IMG/VR virus record: IMGVR_UViG_3300025889_000855
Span: 1-25,614 of that record
Direction: 5' to 3' (one strand)
DNA length: 25,614 bases
Source: a virus
Under the pieces are notes generated by a model. It had not been told where the DNA came from, did not search any database, and saw nothing but the letters and a program-made list of their open reading frames with translations. Shown here in pieces: positions 1 through 11,229 of this stretch. The position numbers and the translations under genes were made by a program. Numbering within the stretch: position 1 is the first letter of the stretch; every line of letters begins with the position of its first letter.

Positions 1-39
1 ATCATGCCGTAAACTGCAAGAGCCGTTAATCGCAATCGC

Positions 40-219
40 GTGTTTACCACGAAGCCGTCTGCTGAGAAAGATTTCGACGTTTTCTCGCGAGCTCACGAAG
101 CTCAGTGGACGTACAAGGGTCGGATCCGAGCAACCTCTCCCGAGGAGGCAAAAGAAAGTTTTATGCAAGAAAATTTCGTAACTAACCCAAATAATGTGGC
201 AGTTTATGTTCGCCGGTAA
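40..219 (+). CDS. small hypothetical protein (59 aa)
   Basis: An open frame runs from just after a TAA at 10-12 to a TAA at 217-219; the only conventional start in it is GTG at 40. The C-terminal half (about residues 20-59) reads like a real small phage protein: a W-T-Y-K-G-R-I-R-A strand, then a Ser-Pro-Glu-Glu-Ala helix start, then a Val-Ala-Val-Tyr-Val strand ending in Arg-Arg. No Shine-Dalgarno sequence precedes the GTG. I do not recognise a family. The true gene could begin upstream with a frame change, so the start is uncertain. Confidence 0.4.
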   Translation: MFTTKPSAEKDFDVFSRAHEAQWTYKGRIRATSPEEAKESFMQENFVTNPNNVAVYVRR

Positions 220-250: not shown

Positions 251-326
251 GTCGGCGCGCCTGGTGGCTGCTCCCCAAGAAGCCAATTCGGTGGGGCATG
301 AGGGGGTTCGATTCCCCAGCGCCGAC
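251..326 (+). ncRNA. tRNA-like element with T arm and 8-bp acceptor but no canonical anticodon arm
   Basis: The ends 251-258 and 319-326 are perfect reverse complements (8 bp). Just inside the 3' strand is a textbook T arm: GGGGG at 302-306, loop TTCGATT at 307-313, CCCCA at 314-318, with a G-A mismatch at the base. Total length (76 nt) fits a tRNA. The middle does not fold as D and anticodon arms: no 5-bp stem with a 7-nt loop carrying U33 can be drawn. Instead TGGCT (265-269) pairs with AGCCA (281-285), and CCCCA (273-277) in its loop can pair with TGGGG (292-296), giving an H-type pseudoknot. No CCA is encoded. It may be a decayed tRNA, a tRNA mimic or an integration-site remnant. Confidence 0.45.
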
Positions 327-408: not shown

Positions 409-837
409 ATGCAAATCAAATCCTCCGATCTCGTCAAGCTCGGCGCAGCTGCTGCTGATGCTTACGATGAAAAAGATCAAGCCCAGACAGCCCTAGATGA
501 GTCCTTCGGTCTGCCCTTCAACGCAGCACGTGACAATCTGCTGAGAGATTTAGAAATCGCAGAGTCTCAAGGTCTCGACCTGTCTCTGTTTAGTGGCGAC
601 GAGAGCAGGTTCCGCTTCCCTGTCAACAACACACACATTATCGTGAGAGTCTCCAAGATTCCCACGCCGCACGTCAAGCTCGAACGGTTGCAGGCAAAGG
701 TTAGTAAGCTTGAGCACGAGCTCAAACTCGCTAAGATGGCTCTTAAGCACACGACCGAGCAGCTGATCGCCTCGCGTGAATGCGACGAGCTGACTGATCG
801 GATCAATCTTGCTTTTACACGATTGCGCAAAAGTTAA
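409..837 (+). CDS. hypothetical coiled-coil protein (142 aa)
   Basis: I chose ATG 409; an in-frame ATG at 340 would add a Cys/Arg-rich stretch that overlaps only the leader after the tRNA-like element and does not look coding. The N-terminal half is acidic and helical. Residues about 88-115 have heptad-like Leu spacing (LQAKVSKLEHELKLAK), so a short coiled coil is likely. No signal peptide or membrane segment is visible. It stands alone ahead of a terminator-like hairpin and shows no recognisable family signature. Function is unknown. Confidence 0.7.
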   Translation: MQIKSSDLVKLGAAAADAYDEKDQAQTALDESFGLPFNAARDNLLRDLEIAESQGLDLSLFSGDESRFRFPVNNTHIIVRVSKIPTPHVKLERLQAKVSKLEHELKLAKMALKHTTEQLIASRECDELTDRINLAFTRLRKS

Positions 838-3103: not shown

Positions 3104-4294
3104 ATGGAAAACTCTTTGTTCATCAAACTTCAAAACTTTCGCGGAGCTCTCAATGCTGCTTATCTTGAGCGTGAACCGATCGTGGATGGTTTGCTTGCCA
3201 CGCTGATCAGCAAGCAGAACGCTTTTCTCCTCGGCGCTCCCGGCACAGGTAAATCTGATTTGGTTCGCTCAATTTGCGGCGGAATCACAGACGCGCGTTA
3301 CTTCGGATATCTGCTTACGCCCACGTCCGATCCCTCGGAAGTCTTCGGGCCGGTAGCAGTCAGCAAGCTACTGAACGATGAATACACTCGCGACGTATCT
3401 GGTTACCTTCCGGATGCGCACATTGCTTTCACTGATGAGCTGTTTCGTGGAAGCTCCGCAATCTTGAATTCGCTTCTGACTCTCCTGAACGAACGGACAT
3501 TCAACAACGGCAAAGAGAACATCAAAACTCCCATCCAATCGATCATCGCAGCAACAAACAGCTGGCCCGATGAGGAATCTCTGCAGGCCTTTGCGGATCG
3601 TTTTCTGTTCCGTCCAACCGTGCTGCCGCTGCGCAAACCAACCTCCAAGCGTCGACTGGACGAGTGGGGCCTAGGGATCGATGAGCGGCCCACGGTGGGG
3701 CAAGCCTTGTCCCTACAGGAACTAGAACAGCTGCAGGCTGCTGCAACGCAGCTCAAAGCCTCTGAAGAGTTTCTAGATAAGTTTAACTCTGTCTGGGAGA
3801 TGCTCGAACAGCGCGGTATCACAATCAGCGACCGGCGTCGCATTCAGATCCTGAAGTTTCTTCGAGCCTGGGCAGTTGTCTTGGGTGATGACGAACTGGT
3901 GCCGGAGCACATGCACAACAGCCTGATACACATTGTCTATACGACAGCGGAAGACCAAACCGTTATCAAAGAAGTTCTGGAACAAGAAGTCCCAACCGCA
4001 GACAAAGTCTTCGGCGATGCGAAGCGAGCAGCTGCAGGGATCATGGCAGAGTACTCGGCCCACTCCAACAAAGTACGCACCAAGGGTCTGACAGAGCTCA
4101 ACGACTTTGTGATGCTGATCAGGAAATACCATAAAGATATGACGACAGTGAAGGATAAAGTATCCGAGATCTTGGACGGCACTAGATTGAGGATGACGGT
4201 TTCCACGCGAGCGAATGGGGTGAAACTCGTTCAACACTTGCAAAACAACTGCGACACCCTGGCCCGAGCCATCAGCGACTTCAGTAAGGAATGA
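3104..4294 (+). CDS. MoxR/RavA-type AAA+ ATPase (396 aa)
   Basis: A hexameric AAA+ remodelling ATPase of the MoxR class, which typically partners a VWA protein to insert cofactors or to activate or disassemble target complexes. Visible motifs: Walker A GAPGTGKS (44-51), Walker B I-A-F-T-D-E (107-112), the helix-2 insert region L-N-S-L-L-T-L-L-N-E-R (121-131) typical of MoxR, sensor 1 A-A-T-N (149-152), and an arginine-finger-like A-D-R-F (164-167). The C-terminal 200 residues are helical lid and extension. It overlaps the next gene by ATGA. The VWA protein is encoded two genes downstream, the classic MoxR-VWA pairing. The substrate in this phage is unknown. Confidence 0.92.
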   Translation: MENSLFIKLQNFRGALNAAYLEREPIVDGLLATLISKQNAFLLGAPGTGKSDLVRSICGGITDARYFGYLLTPTSDPSEVFGPVAVSKLLNDEYTRDVSGYLPDAHIAFTDELFRGSSAILNSLLTLLNERTFNNGKENIKTPIQSIIAATNSWPDEESLQAFADRFLFRPTVLPLRKPTSKRRLDEWGLGIDERPTVGQALSLQELEQLQAAATQLKASEEFLDKFNSVWEMLEQRGITISDRRRIQILKFLRAWAVVLGDDELVPEHMHNSLIHIVYTTAEDQTVIKEVLEQEVPTADKVFGDAKRAAAGIMAEYSAHSNKVRTKGLTELNDFVMLIRKYHKDMTTVKDKVSEILDGTRLRMTVSTRANGVKLVQHLQNNCDTLARAISDFSKE

Positions 4295-4608
4295 CAACCA
4301 AACCAAAGAACAAAGGAAAGCTAAGCGTGGGGGATGTTACATACATCCTCCTGTCTCAGGAATCCGACTCCGCCTTAGGTCGCGAACTGAATGTCTCGAA
4401 GCAGTGCATAAATCAAGTTCGCAAAGGTTTGACCTACAAGAACTTGGCTCCTGATCTGCCTAGACGTTCTTCCGAGCCGCGAGTTCCCTGTACTTCTTGT
4501 GCTTACTGGGGGGCGTCCGGCTGCGGGCTTGAGGTTCCGGAAGCGCTTACCGATCCGTTCTTCGCACGAGAGTGCAGTTACTTCAACTCAACAGAATCAT
4601 CGTCATGA
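4291..4608 (+). CDS. small HTH plus four-Cys (putative zinc) protein (105 aa)
   Basis: ATGA overlaps at both ends couple it tightly between the ATPase and VWA genes. Residues 13-55 look like a helix-turn-helix of the kind found in phage proteins (S-A-L-G-R-E-L-N-V-S-K-Q-C-I-N-Q-V-R-K-G). The C-terminal part has C-x2-C (68-71), another Cys near 78 and one near 95, a likely zinc or Fe-S site. It could be a DNA-binding regulator or an adaptor that directs the MoxR/VWA machine to a target. The motif reading is mine by eye; no named family is claimed. Confidence 0.7.
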   Translation: MTTKPKNKGKLSVGDVTYILLSQESDSALGRELNVSKQCINQVRKGLTYKNLAPDLPRRSSEPRVPCTSCAYWGASGCGLEVPEALTDPFFARECSYFNSTESSS

Positions 4609-6164
4609 GCTCCCATCAGTTCACCACGCAAACTGAGTTTGTTCGGCTGTGCGATAACGAGCCGCTCACACTAGCGTGCTCTGCTCTTGCTGACTTCCTA
4701 TGGTCTGACTTCGTGCGCGAGTCGCGTCCGGCCGTCAAGTATCTGATCGATCATTACAACATCCGTCAGCTCTCCCGCTTCGGTAAAGAAGTGTTTGATC
4801 GGCTGTACAACGCCGATGAAGTCAACTGGCTGGTGACTGAAGACGCGTATGAAGACTACTTCCGTCGTATGTGTGACGGAGAGACTTCCGCGTTGCCTCA
4901 AGGGTACAAGCCAGAGAACGGAATCTGGCACGCGATCATGACGGATCTATCCAACGCGGCAGCGTGGCGCGACCTGTTGCAGCATTGCGTAGGAGATCAG
5001 TTCAACAGCGGTAACAACGCGGTCTCCATCCTCAACAAACTCGCAGAAGTAATCGAAGAGGCTATATCTAATCAGTCTTTCGACGTAGAGCTTCTGACCA
5101 ACGCAGCAGACCAACTGCAGCAGCTGCGGGAAGAGTTCAAGAGAGCCCAGGCAGCGGGTGATAGGGCTGCGGCCGATAAAGCAAGACAGAAAGGCAAGCA
5201 GCTGAACCAAGCGATCAGTGAGGCAATCCAGCAAGCCTCGGAAGCTCTGCGCCCGCAGGCAAACAAGATTGTAGATCAGACGCTGCAGGAGAGCAAGGAT
5301 CAGAACGAGCAAATGTCCACGCTGGCCGGAACGACAGCGGGCGCCGGCTCGAAGACGGCCGATCTCAAGCAAAAGAAGGAATTGGCTCAGCGGCTGGCAA
5401 ACAATAAAGCGTTGCGACAACTAGCCAAGAAGCTGGGAGCGCTTAAACAGACTTGGGTTGAGCGAAAGCGCGCAAAGAAGAACAAAGCAAACTATGACTG
5501 TATCGTGGGCGCCAAATTCAGCGATGATCTGACGCGAGCCTTCCCGATTGAAACAGCACTGGCAGGTACGGAACAAGGCAGGGCTCTGTTTGCCCTCAAA
5601 TTTGCGCACAAGACCCTGCTAACTAAGGACTACACAGCAACTGCAAAGCATCTCGATAAAGGTCCCGTCGTCATGTACGTGGACGTTTCCGGCTCAATGA
5701 GCGGAGAGCGAGAGCTGTGGAGTAAAGCCATCACGCTTGTCATAACAGAGCAAGCCCTCAAAGAAAACCGTACGGTTTACATAAATCTGTTCGACACTCG
5801 GATCGACAAGAGCATCCAGCTAAAACCAGGCGCTGCTGATATCTCAACGTTGCTGGACTTCGTTGCGGAATGGACGCTCGGCGGCGGGACGAGCTTCAAT
5901 GCCGTTGTCGGCCACGCGCTCGAAAAAGGGTGTAAGGACCCGCGGGCGGACATTCTCATGATCACGGACGGGTATGCAGACCTCACAGACGCCTTCTGCT
6001 CTCGCCTGAATACATTTAAGCAAACAACGGGGACGCAATGGAGCACAGTCTGTGTGGAAACAGACGTACCGGACATTTGTTACAAGTTCAGCGATGAGGT
6101 ATTTTCGGTAAATCTCTACAATACGGAGAACACCATTGACGCAATCCAGCGGTGCTTCCGATGA
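4605..6164 (+). CDS. VWA-domain protein, MoxR partner (519 aa)
   Basis: I start it at ATG 4605, which overlaps the upstream TGA by ATGA; an in-frame ATG at 4572 lies inside the previous gene. Residues about 150-290 are strongly helical and charged, probably coiled coil. The C-terminal third is a von Willebrand factor A domain with a complete metal-ion-dependent adhesion site: D-V-S-G-S at 360-364, Thr429 in G-G-G-T-S, and Asp455 in T-D-G. This layout (long helical region then VWA) is that of CobT-like and other MoxR-partner proteins. With the ATPase it should form a two-component remodelling machine in the cytoplasm. ATGA also links it to the next gene. Confidence 0.9.
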   Translation: MSSHQFTTQTEFVRLCDNEPLTLACSALADFLWSDFVRESRPAVKYLIDHYNIRQLSRFGKEVFDRLYNADEVNWLVTEDAYEDYFRRMCDGETSALPQGYKPENGIWHAIMTDLSNAAAWRDLLQHCVGDQFNSGNNAVSILNKLAEVIEEAISNQSFDVELLTNAADQLQQLREEFKRAQAAGDRAAADKARQKGKQLNQAISEAIQQASEALRPQANKIVDQTLQESKDQNEQMSTLAGTTAGAGSKTADLKQKKELAQRLANNKALRQLAKKLGALKQTWVERKRAKKNKANYDCIVGAKFSDDLTRAFPIETALAGTEQGRALFALKFAHKTLLTKDYTATAKHLDKGPVVMYVDVSGSMSGERELWSKAITLVITEQALKENRTVYINLFDTRIDKSIQLKPGAADISTLLDFVAEWTLGGGTSFNAVVGHALEKGCKDPRADILMITDGYADLTDAFCSRLNTFKQTTGTQWSTVCVETDVPDICYKFSDEVFSVNLYNTENTIDAIQRCFR

Positions 6165-7784: not shown

Positions 7785-9683
7785 ATGCAAATCACTTATC
7801 TGACAGACACGCAGAAAGCTCTGACTGCACTCGAAGAGCTTAAAAAATCGCCAAAGCTTTGCGCTGACTTCGAGACCACGGGGCTTCAGGCTGGCATAGC
7901 CAAGCCCCGTCTGCTGCAGCTGTGCGACGCAGATCCCGCTAACAGCGATAGAACAATCTACGTATTTGATTTCTTTAAGACGGACGTAAAGGAATCCCTC
8001 AAGGCTCTGATCGAAAGCAGGGAAATGCTCCTCGGTCATAACCTAACGTTTGACTTACAGTTCTTTCTTTACTTAGGTATCGACTTCAAGAATAAACTCT
8101 TTGATACGTACATCGCAGAGCGGGTCTTACGGGCCGGGTTTCTTGAGAAGAAGATCTCGCCAAAGGCAAACAAATCGTACTTTGACGATATTTCGTGCTC
8201 CCTGAAAGCCGTAGCTGAGCGGCGGCTCGGAATGGAATTGGATAAAGAACAGCGAATGACTGATTGGAGTCAGCCAGATCTGACTATCGAGCAGGTTACA
8301 TACGCAGCTACAGACGTAGATATTCTCCCAAAGATCGCTGCTGAGCAGTTAGTGGAGTTGAAACAAGACGAGCTGATTGGTATCTACAGCATCGAGTCCA
8401 AGTGCATTCGCCCGGTAGCTCTGATGTGCTTCCGAGGTTTCAATGTCGATCTCGAAAGGCTGCACAAGCTAAAAGTCGACATCGAAACCGCACTAGAGGA
8501 TAAAACTACAGAGTTCGTGGAGTCTCTGGACGCACGCCTGCCGGAGCACGCGAAGCTTCCACGCAACGTCGAAGGGAAGGTTCTTGTAGGTAAAAACGCC
8601 AAGAAAGAATTCAACCCAGGTTCTACGACTCAGGTTGTCGCTGCGTTTACCTTGTGCTACATCGACCTACCGACAGATGAGGTCACGCACAAAAAGACCT
8701 TAAATCAGATATCGCTTGCAGAGTTCCATAGTGCAGATCCGACCCTGACTCTTTACAAGGAGAGGACCAAGATCGAAACGCAGTTGGAGCACGTCACCAA
8801 GCTGTTTGAGAACATCAATCCAGTGACGCGCAGGATTCACAGCTTCTACAACCAAGTGGGGGCAAACAGCGGCAGGTTCACGTGCGCGGGGGCCAAGAAG
8901 GTCGCAAAGACCAAAACAAAGTCGACCTTTGCCGTGAATCTCCAGCAGGTTCCACGCGATAAAAGTTTCCGAAAGTGTTTCACCGCGACCGAGGGTTACT
9001 CTCTGATCATCTCGGACTACAACCAAATGGAACTGCGGCTGTTGGCAGAGCTGGCAGATATTCCTCAAATGCAGGAGGCATTCAATAACGACATTGATTT
9101 ACATACGCTCACCGCAAGCCTCATAAACGACTGTGATATTTCTGAGGTGACACCAGGCCAACGACAAATGGCTAAGGGCGCCAACTTCGGTATGATCTTT
9201 GGTATCGGATACAGAAAGTTTAAAACGTACGCAGCAGCTTCCTATAACTTGAAGCTCACGCTCTCAGAAAGTAAAGTTCTGCACGCCAAGTTTCATAACA
9301 GCTACCCGAAGCTGCGGGAGTGGCATAGGCAGCGCGGTGCGCTGGTGGAAGACGGGTGGTGCTACACCCGAACCGCCTTAGGGCGGAGGAGGCTTCTGTC
9401 TTACGACGACGCCAAGATGACCACGGCGGCCAACACCTTGATCCAAGGCACGGGCGCAGACATCCTAAAAGTAGCATTAGGTACGCTTAGCGAGTATTTA
9501 AACGAGGATGTGCGTCTGATCGCTGTGGTGCACGACGAGTGCGTCCTCGAAGTAAAACAGGGTTTAGAGGAGGAGTGGAAGCAAAAGCTTATGGAAATAA
9601 TGGTAGATGCAGGTAAGACCGTGTTTAAAAAGACTAAGCTGGTGGCTAACCCGGGAGTCGGAAACGACTGGTCTGCTAAGTAA
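7785..9683 (+). CDS. polA: family A DNA polymerase with 3'-5' exonuclease (632 aa)
   Basis: Replicative phage DNA polymerase. The exonuclease domain (about 1-195) has Exo I D28/E30 in A-D-F-E-T, Exo II D90 in H-N-L-T-F-D, and Exo III Y173/D177 in Y-A-A-T-D. The polymerase domain has motif A with D411 (S-D-Y-N-Q-M-E-L-R), motif B R460/K464/F468 in RQMAKGANFGMIFG, and motif C H583-D584-E585. All catalytic residues are present, so it should be active and proofreading. There is no 5'-3' exonuclease domain, as usual for phage enzymes. F468 corresponds to E. coli Pol I Phe762; F472 replaces the usual Tyr766. It begins a new unit after the terminator. Confidence 0.97.
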   Translation: MQITYLTDTQKALTALEELKKSPKLCADFETTGLQAGIAKPRLLQLCDADPANSDRTIYVFDFFKTDVKESLKALIESREMLLGHNLTFDLQFFLYLGIDFKNKLFDTYIAERVLRAGFLEKKISPKANKSYFDDISCSLKAVAERRLGMELDKEQRMTDWSQPDLTIEQVTYAATDVDILPKIAAEQLVELKQDELIGIYSIESKCIRPVALMCFRGFNVDLERLHKLKVDIETALEDKTTEFVESLDARLPEHAKLPRNVEGKVLVGKNAKKEFNPGSTTQVVAAFTLCYIDLPTDEVTHKKTLNQISLAEFHSADPTLTLYKERTKIETQLEHVTKLFENINPVTRRIHSFYNQVGANSGRFTCAGAKKVAKTKTKSTFAVNLQQVPRDKSFRKCFTATEGYSLIISDYNQMELRLLAELADIPQMQEAFNNDIDLHTLTASLINDCDISEVTPGQRQMAKGANFGMIFGIGYRKFKTYAAASYNLKLTLSESKVLHAKFHNSYPKLREWHRQRGALVEDGWCYTRTALGRRRLLSYDDAKMTTAANTLIQGTGADILKVALGTLSEYLNEDVRLIAVVHDECVLEVKQGLEEEWKQKLMEIMVDAGKTVFKKTKLVANPGVGNDWSAK

Positions 9684-10239: not shown

Positions 10240-11229
10240 GTGGCGCGTCAACGTCGGTTTGCTGGTCAGGTCGAGGCTATCGGCGCCCCCACAGCGGATC
10301 AATTCGCATCGGCGACCGAAACACTAAAGGCTGCGGGTCAGTTTCTGAAGCCCAGCCGAGGTGGGCGATTAGGCGGAAGCACCGCTCAAGAACAACAGGA
10401 GGGTGCGGCGGCGCGGCAAGCGAATCCACAGGTGTTCCAACCGGCGAGCCCGGGCGCAACGTCCTCCGTGCAAGACATAGCCAAGTTACGTAAAGATCTT
10501 GGTATCGACGATCTGATTAAAGGTATCTCTGAGTTCCGCTCGATGCAGAGCGGAGGTCAGTTCCCTGGCGGAGGTTTTGAGACGCCGCAGTTCGAGATGC
10601 CGCAGTTTGAGATGCCTGAATTCGAAATGCCGTCATTCGAACAACCGAACTGGGAGGAGCTGATTTCTAAAGCGTTAGGCAGTCAGCAGGGGCAGCCCGA
10701 AACCACGCCGGCAGGAGCGGCTCCGACCCCTAATCAGGTGGCGGCTCCTACACCAAACGCATCTCGGTTTACAGCTGGCGGAATCAATTACAACCTCAGC
10801 AAAACGGGTGGGGCCGGTCTTGGCGGTAAAGATGTAGCCAACTTAATCAAAAAAGGTGCGTCAACAAAAACCCTAATGGAGTTTGCAAAAAATGCGCCGC
10901 GTGTAAGTTTAGCAGGTCAGAAAGCTTTACAACAACAAGGAATCAAGGTAACAGGTAGCGGCGTGGCGAGAGCTGCTTCCCTCACCTCATCGGCGTCGAG
11001 AGCCGTGGCTGCTGCAAAACCTTCCGGTGGGGGAAGCGGAGGCAGCAAGCCGTCGGGCGGAGGGAGCGGAGGCAGCAAGCCTTCCGGTGGGGGAAGCGGA
11101 GGCAGCAAGCCGTCGGGCGGAGGGAGCGGAGGCAGCAAGCCTTCCGGTGGGGGAAGCGGGGGCAGCAAGCCGTCGGGCGGAGGGAGCGGCGGTAACAAAC
11201 CTTCCGGCGGCAACAACAAGAAAAAATAA
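10240..11229 (+). CDS. low-complexity Gly/Ser/Lys/Pro-repeat protein (329 aa)
   Basis: It starts at GTG 10240. The N-terminal part is basic and Ala/Gln/Gly-rich. Residues about 113-137 hold four imperfect copies of a short F-E-M-P-x unit followed by N-W-E-E-L. Residues about 175-245 are a more ordinary segment that includes a G-G-I-N-Y-N-L-S strand. From residue 260 to near the end come six decapeptide copies of KPSGGGSGGS (the last with Asn) and a basic N-N-K-K-K tail. Such linker-like, positively charged tails occur in phage structural or DNA-binding proteins, but I cannot assign a function. Reading frames seen on the other strand here are artefacts of the repeats. Confidence 0.7.
   Translation: MARQRRFAGQVEAIGAPTADQFASATETLKAAGQFLKPSRGGRLGGSTAQEQQEGAAARQANPQVFQPASPGATSSVQDIAKLRKDLGIDDLIKGISEFRSMQSGGQFPGGGFETPQFEMPQFEMPEFEMPSFEQPNWEELISKALGSQQGQPETTPAGAAPTPNQVAAPTPNASRFTAGGINYNLSKTGGAGLGGKDVANLIKKGASTKTLMEFAKNAPRVSLAGQKALQQQGIKVTGSGVARAASLTSSASRAVAAAKPSGGGSGGSKPSGGGSGGSKPSGGGSGGSKPSGGGSGGSKPSGGGSGGSKPSGGGSGGNKPSGGNNKKK
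11017..11196 (+). repeat. tandem repeat, six 30-bp units in an alternating 60-bp pattern
   Basis: Six 30-bp units encode KPSGGGSGGS. Two synonymous variants alternate strictly: one begins AAR-CCTTCCGGTGGGGGAAGC, the other AAG-CCGTCGGGCGGAGGGAGC, so the true period is 60 bp, present three times. A partial seventh copy follows at 11197. This pattern implies growth by duplication of a two-unit block. Confidence 0.92.

Follow-up and report, generated by a model that had tools for sequence, protein, structure and literature searches.

The stretch of viral DNA analysed here (the window; 25,614 nucleotides of an IMG/VR record) carries at positions 251–326, between two co-directional genes and on the same strand, a 76-nt tRNA-like element. 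Comparison across relatives identifies it as a shrunken cloverleaf, with a 6–8 bp acceptor, a D hairpin of 3 bp whose loop contains GG, a variable hairpin and a T arm. Because about 20 distinct viruses hold it at the same site and its stems covary strongly, its occurrence goes beyond chance, and the comparative evidence indicates that the element is real and conserved. The G–U pairs in several stems, together with a constant orientation, point to an RNA of the plus strand as read. In our reading, to which we give a probability of about 55%, it is a noncoding mimic of the mascRNA/menRNA design that host RNase P and 3′ tRNA-processing enzymes release from an operon transcript and that has a role in processing or stability. 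Non-decoding tRNA mimics as such are of a known kind; the phage family is apparently undescribed.

Results

Fold of the element in the window

Direct reading of the window letters confirmed the element, and most of what the initial annotation had seen at this place stood: an acceptor-like helix of 8 bp (5′ strand 251–258, 3′ strand 319–326), a TTCGATT T loop at 307–313 on a G/C stem, the overall length of a tRNA, and the lack of a normal anticodon arm, whose place is taken by an arm with an 18-nt loop. The inner 6 bp of the acceptor (5′ strand 253–258) are kept family-wide, and the pairs at 251 and 252 are restricted to the subclade of the window; the outer pair U252–A325 becomes A–U in L088. 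A325 is also the base that directly follows the inner helix, and 15 of 20 members have an A at this place, as expected of a discriminator base; CCA is not encoded at the 3′ end. The first inner acceptor pair (in the window, within 253–258/319–325) is C–G in every member, with A following in most, a C1–G72 plus A73 pattern that we take to be that of bacterial tRNA-Pro.

The D-arm equivalent, the 3-bp hairpin GCC-UGGU-GGC at 259–268, adjoins the acceptor with zero linker nucleotides, and in the window as in the aligned members the helices abut without linkers. Within its loop, G264 is the equivalent of G19 and forms the elbow pair with C309, the C56 equivalent. The hairpin replacing the anticodon arm (269–298) has the stem UGCUCC (269–274)/GGGGCA (293–298) below its 18-nt loop. 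It is followed by a 5-nt variable-loop equivalent (299–303; consensus [UC]G[AU]G[N]), constant in length among aligned members, and by the T arm (304–317), with the stem GGG(G)/CCC(C) and the 7-nt loop UUCGAUU. A 7-nt anticodon loop on a 5-bp stem is absent from the window element; since the arm loop runs from 3 nt in L008, whose element of 57 nt is the smallest of all, to at most 22 nt in other relatives, no anticodon can be read from it in the usual way.

The folding energy is −39.8 kcal/mol, against −30.5 kcal/mol in dinucleotide shuffles (z −2.8), and in the pseudoknot-free ensemble the D stem has a probability of 1.0 and the arm of 0.8–0.97. ARAGORN, which the initial annotation had proposed to run, found zero tRNA or tmRNA genes in the window, and nothing in Rfam 15 exceeded its gathering cut-off for the element. 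The top sub-threshold match was tRNA-Sec, over exactly 251–326 (28.2 bits, E 0.0016, cut-off 47), followed by mascRNA-menRNA (16.4 bits, cut-off 42.5). These results, taken with the stability of the fold, show a tRNA-like object outside the catalogued families.

Virus, relatives and genomic site

No direct DNA similarity to known phages was found, and the central motif is matched exactly by one contig only, which comes from the same virus. The best phage matches of the endolysin and of ThyX are mostly Synechococcus phages or marine viruses, which makes a cyanobacterial host likely; psbA, as a host marker, was not found in 12 related contigs. For a 405-aa protein (977–2194), neither the phage collection nor the cellular genome contigs yielded a relative. 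Relatives were gathered by protein, the MoxR ATPase yielding 28 loci and the 405-aa protein 60. Among 26 loci of DNA-polymerase relatives (about 55% identity), just one more member came to light, L259 (65% identity).

Upstream of the element lies a conserved small gene of 59 aa with a GTG start (39–218, plus strand; the ORF at 2442–2621 of the overlapping contig L003), and the element begins 32 nt past its stop codon, an arrangement repeated in relatives. Downstream, a coiled-coil-like gene of 142 aa (409–837, plus strand) served as the syntenic anchor and was found by tblastn in nearly all relatives. The order at the site in relatives is the small gene (often with a YPKR-like motif at its end), a promoter-like sequence and the coiled-coil gene, and most relatives hold the tRNA-like element between the two genes. 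The canonical versions, from some 20 distinct related viruses at the same syntenic place, are those of the window, L088, L095, L006, L007, L008, L010, L021, L028, L011, L017, L091, L087, L092, L098, L059 and L025, with L093, L119 and L259 added later. Whole related records mostly gave one match each; those of L059 and L119 have a second, weak one (24.9 and 14.2 bits). Neither a terminator nor a consensus promoter was recognised near the element.

In L012, L101, L105, L110 and L115 the element is missing, the stop codon running straight to the promoter, and L083/L084 show a natural deletion of the acceptor 5′ strand and D arm that leaves the arm and T arm, the element of their close relative L028 being intact. 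The element is thus dispensable in some lineages. In a more distant clade (L014, L022 and L123), the site is occupied by tRNA-like variants whose arm hairpin is long and which lack a clear D hairpin. Outside these relatives, a search of cellular contigs (GTDB) for a D hairpin combined with a T arm produced seven matches, none convincing: two overlap ARAGORN tRNA-Leu genes, a third is similar and one resembles a tmRNA end. Nine records of isolated phages searched with our two covariance models, R1 and R2, gave no clear member.

At 341–388 of the window, a promoter-like sequence (TGTGCTACCAT) is followed by a 5′-UTR motif kept in most relatives, including those without the mimic. It consists of a hairpin with GGY/RCC flanks, which covary, and a loop of GGCACCG or GCCACCG, followed by AACGYGG(Y)GC. 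The motif had no Rfam match; it is possibly a regulatory RNA of the coiled-coil gene.

Covariation of the stems

In an alignment of 17 sequences, whose variable arm loop was trimmed by hand, the 6 bp of the acceptor are paired in 102 of 102 cells; all six pairs form in all 17 sequences and five are changed on both sides. The consensus otherwise comprises a D hairpin of 3 bp, an arm of 5–7 bp, a variable loop of 5 nt, a T stem of 3–4 bp with a 7-nt loop, and a 2-nt link. All seven arm-stem pairs show both-sided changes, as do three of the four in the T stem, which is paired in every letter-bearing cell, and the middle pair of the D hairpin occurs as C–G, U–A and U–G. Overall, 96% of cells pair, against 79% when shuffled, and 17 of 21 pairs are changed on both sides; the 67 cells so changed compare with 22 ± 3.7 in shuffled alignments and at most 12 for slid structures, part of this signal being built in, as the structure was drawn from the same sequences and trimmed by hand. 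The same trimming at the variable loop makes alignments A3 and A4 lean towards the proposed structure. Mapped on the 405-aa protein tree, the stems require a minimum of 32 both-sided changes.

Three lines of support are not built in by the alignment. Free folding of the full sequences gave the same D hairpin beside the acceptor in 19 of 20; the model R1 later found three held-out members, L093, L119 and L259 (the last at 62 bits, E 1.1e-14); and a model made from another virus group, described below, matched the window. A stand-alone tRNA mimic, as opposed to a tRNA gene, had been suggested by the initial annotation, and this reading is now well supported by covariation in about 20 relatives and in a second group of viruses.

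The elbow pair and the acceptor/T stack

At its third position the D loop has G where the T loop starts with TTC and A where it starts with TTT, so that the elbow pair is G–C in 10 and A–U in 7 of the 17 sequences, with no exceptions; L093, outside this alignment, again combines A with TTT. This D-loop/T-loop pair is the 19–56 tertiary pair of tRNAs. The crystal structure of mascRNA holds an equivalent contact, G15–C41 (PMC11693755). On the tree the switch between G–C and A–U is a single event, retained ever since, and it counts as one natural experiment rather than many.

Of 20 members, 15 have 12 nt between the T loop and the end of the acceptor and five have 11 nt, some positions of the stack being unpaired. 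In pre-tRNAs, RNase P binds to the T arm stacked with the acceptor and measures from the elbow (PMC4919913); its ruler of 12 bp, which these distances match, is conserved in tRNAs, and the E. coli RNase P RNA cuts minimal acceptor/T-arm hairpins (PMC11143913). The constant parts of the element are the acceptor/T stack and the elbow, as recognised by RNase P and related factors.

The proposed pseudoknot

The initial annotation had proposed an acceptor–pseudoknot–T-arm mimic, with an H-type pseudoknot replacing the D and anticodon arms. The letters of the window do permit it, UGGCU (265–269) being complementary to AGCCA (281–285) and CCCCA (273–277) to UGGGG (292–296). However, the window and its two closest relatives do not keep these stems: only 73% and 60% of their cells pair, with zero both-sided changes. 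In the same three sequences the cloverleaf stems 259–261/266–268 and 269–274/293–298 are fully paired (100% of cells), and four of their pairs have changed on both sides. The motif AGCC, the potential partner of UGGCU, is present in the two nearest relatives one base shifted and missing from the remaining family, across which the competing D hairpin covaries. Covariation of the inner stems, the check named beforehand, was thus absent for the pseudoknot and present for two other stems, the D hairpin and the arm. We regard the pseudoknot as very improbable and the shrunken cloverleaf as the fold of the element; since AGCC is kept, shifted by one base, an alternative pairing of D arm and loop may exist within the subclade of the window.

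A second group of viruses

Two DNA patterns searched in IMG/VR retrieved loci of further viruses, one set of which encodes WhiB (PF02467), a primase-polymerase and a DNA methylase; these genes make the set probably actinophages. Here the element sits after a conserved 154-aa gene, whose relatives were fetched through protein similarity only (80 of 319 loci kept). Ten distinct elements from this group show both-sided changes in 14 of 19 pairs, with 37 such cells against 11.8 in shuffles and at most 6 for slid structures, and D hairpins in the versions GUC/GAC and GCU/AGC. The model R2, built from these ten only, matches 49 of 61 second-group loci at E 0.1 or better. It finds the window at 254–324 (35.6 bits, E 1.7e-7), together with the remaining window family. 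On ordinary tRNAs of L040 it gives at most 17.2 bits, and on some annotated tRNAs of the cyanophage S-CREM1 up to about 22 bits; R1 had no match in S-CREM1, which carries a cluster of annotated tRNAs. This second group, unrelated to that of the window, has the same architecture, with covariation of its own.

In L150, L151, L159, L219, L226 and other second-group loci, a hairpin abuts the element on its 5′ side. Its loop (CCUUCCG, CUCCG or CUUCCU) could pair with the arm loop CGGGG, which is conserved (AGGGGAAG in L226), which suggests a kissing contact between the two.

The possibility of a decayed tRNA gene

The duller possibility offered by the initial annotation, a decayed tRNA gene or a remnant of a phage attachment site, would find examples in the distant clade of L014, L022 and L123, whose variants lack the D hairpin, and in the broken copy of one lineage (L083). 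Decay does not account for strong compensatory change on all helices or for an identical architecture in a second virus group. A normal cloverleaf tRNA at the locus in related phages had been named as evidence that would decide for it, and ARAGORN found no relative with such a gene at this site; the window proteins searched included no integrase. We therefore reject this explanation, on the covariation in some 20 relatives and the second group, and regard it as hardly credible.

Discussion

How the mimic might be made and used

We propose that the element is transcribed together with the upstream gene, and that host RNase P would measure 11–13 nt from the T loop and cut at the 5′ end of the element. 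This cut would give the upstream mRNA a defined 3′ end and release the RNA, which host 3′ tRNA-processing enzymes would trim and to which they may add CCA after the conserved A. Being unable to decode, the released RNA would instead aid processing or stability, and it may also persist as a stable mimic that engages host factors which bind the elbow. In mammals, mascRNA is produced by just such a 5′ cut by RNase P and by enzymes that finish its 3′ end (PMC11693755).

The same features could be read differently, with the element as a trans-acting decoy on host factors that recognise the elbow (RNase P, the ribosomal L1 stalk and T-loop-modifying enzymes being candidates) or on a tRNA-directed defence, and its processing incidental. 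The conserved parts, elbow and acceptor/T stack, are those that such factors recognise, and the decoding arm varies freely. On the other hand, the element is lost in some lineages, and no multicopy arrangement was seen, most matching related records having a single copy. We consider such a decoy somewhat unlikely as the main role.

A further alternative places the function in cis, the element being a structure in a read-through mRNA that regulates the downstream gene, for instance through pairing of the arm loop with downstream sequence. Eight members carry the arm loop GGGAGUUU, a perfect complement of AAACUCCC some 17–26 nt past the acceptor, and L006 changes both sides, to AGGGGUUU/AAACCUCU, with two compensatory changes. 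Yet the window, L007, L008, L088 and L095 lack the pairing, a shuffle test was significant for some members only, and transcripts starting from the downstream promoter-like sequence would exclude the pairing partner. Regulation in cis seems to us improbable, and loop-to-trailer pairing was dropped as a general feature because the window does not have it. The members with GGGAGUUU/AAACUCCC are L011, L017, L059, L087, L091, L092, L098 and L259, and the partner lies within the next promoter-like spacer.

Comparison with known RNAs

By analogy, the closest known RNAs to the proposed processed mimic are mammalian mascRNA and menRNA (RF01684; from MALAT1 and MEN-beta/NEAT1). Common to both are an L formed by acceptor and T arm, a small D hairpin and a GG that reaches into the T loop, as well as junctions without linkers, no usable anticodon loop and a position 3′ of another transcript; the crystal structure of mascRNA displays the absence of linkers, the small D hairpin and the GG/T-loop elbow, and its maturation involves RNase P, RNase Z and CCA addition (PMC11693755). 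Unlike the phage element, mascRNA and menRNA derive from vertebrate nuclear lncRNAs and have a 7-bp acceptor and a compact arm loop, and their Rfam model scores the window below its cut-off. The likeness is one of design, and descent is not implied.

With tRNA-Sec (RF01852) the element shares the match over its whole length, a long acceptor and a 4-nt D loop. It differs in its score of 28.2 bits against a cut-off of 47, in a D stem of 3 bp rather than 6, and in having neither an anticodon loop, and with it no UCA anticodon, nor a long variable arm. Compared with a canonical tRNA, the family has the T arm with the T-loop consensus and the 19–56 elbow pair in 17 of 17 sequences, whereas tRNA finders do not recognise it (ARAGORN calls nothing at the site, and the Rfam tRNA model stays below its cut-off). 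As a substrate for RNase P it offers an acceptor/T stack of about 12 nt ending in the T loop, an imperfect one in that the acceptor of relatives often has only 6 bp plus a mismatched link of 2 nt.

Viral RNAs provide other parallels. To our knowledge, the phage M3 RNA and antisense C4 RNA are not full elbow-bearing tRNA mimics. The 3′ tRNA-like structures of the turnip yellow mosaic virus (TYMV) type use an acceptor pseudoknot at the 3′ end of the genome, whereas the acceptor of the window element is a plain helix, and its position is internal in the genome of a DNA phage. M3 and C4 share with it that they are phage RNAs other than tRNAs cut by bacterial RNase P, and the plant RNA virus structures, TYMV among them, that they are viral tRNA mimics and substrates of RNase P in vitro (PMC11143913). 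The tRNA-like domain of tmRNA (ssrA) likewise has an acceptor, a T arm and an elbow with no anticodon arm, and is a substrate of RNase P (PMC4919913). Membership in tmRNA is contradicted by the distance from D hairpin to variable loop, only 30 nt in the window, which has neither a tag reading frame nor the tmRNA pseudoknots and in which ARAGORN finds no tmRNA.

Novelty and significance

The recurrence of this design in many related phages and in an unrelated group argues for a selected and apparently undescribed tRNA mimic. Neither Rfam 15 nor the literature searched, which covered few subscription papers, contained the family, its phage setting, its spread over two groups or its natural A–U elbow. 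It is tempting to generalise to widespread mascRNA-like mimics, present in two or more unrelated DNA phage groups, cut by RNase P from operon transcripts and acting as stable mimics on the host tRNA machinery, and we offer this broader claim tentatively, as possible rather than probable. Such mimics may have arisen separately or spread between the cyanophage-like and the WhiB actinophage-like groups.

A tRNA mimic without linkers and without an anticodon has been known as a design of mammalian lncRNAs. Selection for it in two unrelated DNA phage groups would demonstrate that bacterial viruses also exploit the tRNA-processing enzymes of their hosts, and would offer a simple bacterial system in which to probe what such mimics do. 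The covariance models R1 and R2 can annotate elements that current tRNA finders overlook, and the natural swap of the elbow from G–C to A–U is ready for structural tests.

Additional observations

Other tRNA-like stretches were seen in these and other phages. In L017 (526–593, minus strand), as well as in L018 and L030, ARAGORN calls a tRNA-Cys (aca) whose anticodon arm appears to be AAGCG-GACAA-CGCUU, with a 5-nt loop; this is perhaps a second tRNA mimic in the lineage. The tRNA cluster of Synechococcus phage S-CREM1 (OP535465.1) holds at 44483–44570, between tRNA-Phe and tRNA-Ile, an unannotated tRNA-like stretch that appears to contain two T arms and to lack an anticodon loop; two tRNA genes may have fused here. 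In Streptomyces phage Dagobah (MT711977.1), whose host is cultivated, unannotated tRNA-like stretches are intergenic at 41593–41636 (minus strand) and 9135–9208, and the former resembles a bare acceptor plus T arm of 12 bp.

Elsewhere in the window, 3104–6164 encodes a MoxR ATPase (bpMoxR, PF20030) and then a protein with a VWA domain; descriptions of this combination usually concern cellular ternary systems. The ORF at 10240–11229 ends in repeated KPSGGGSGGS units (10900–11220).
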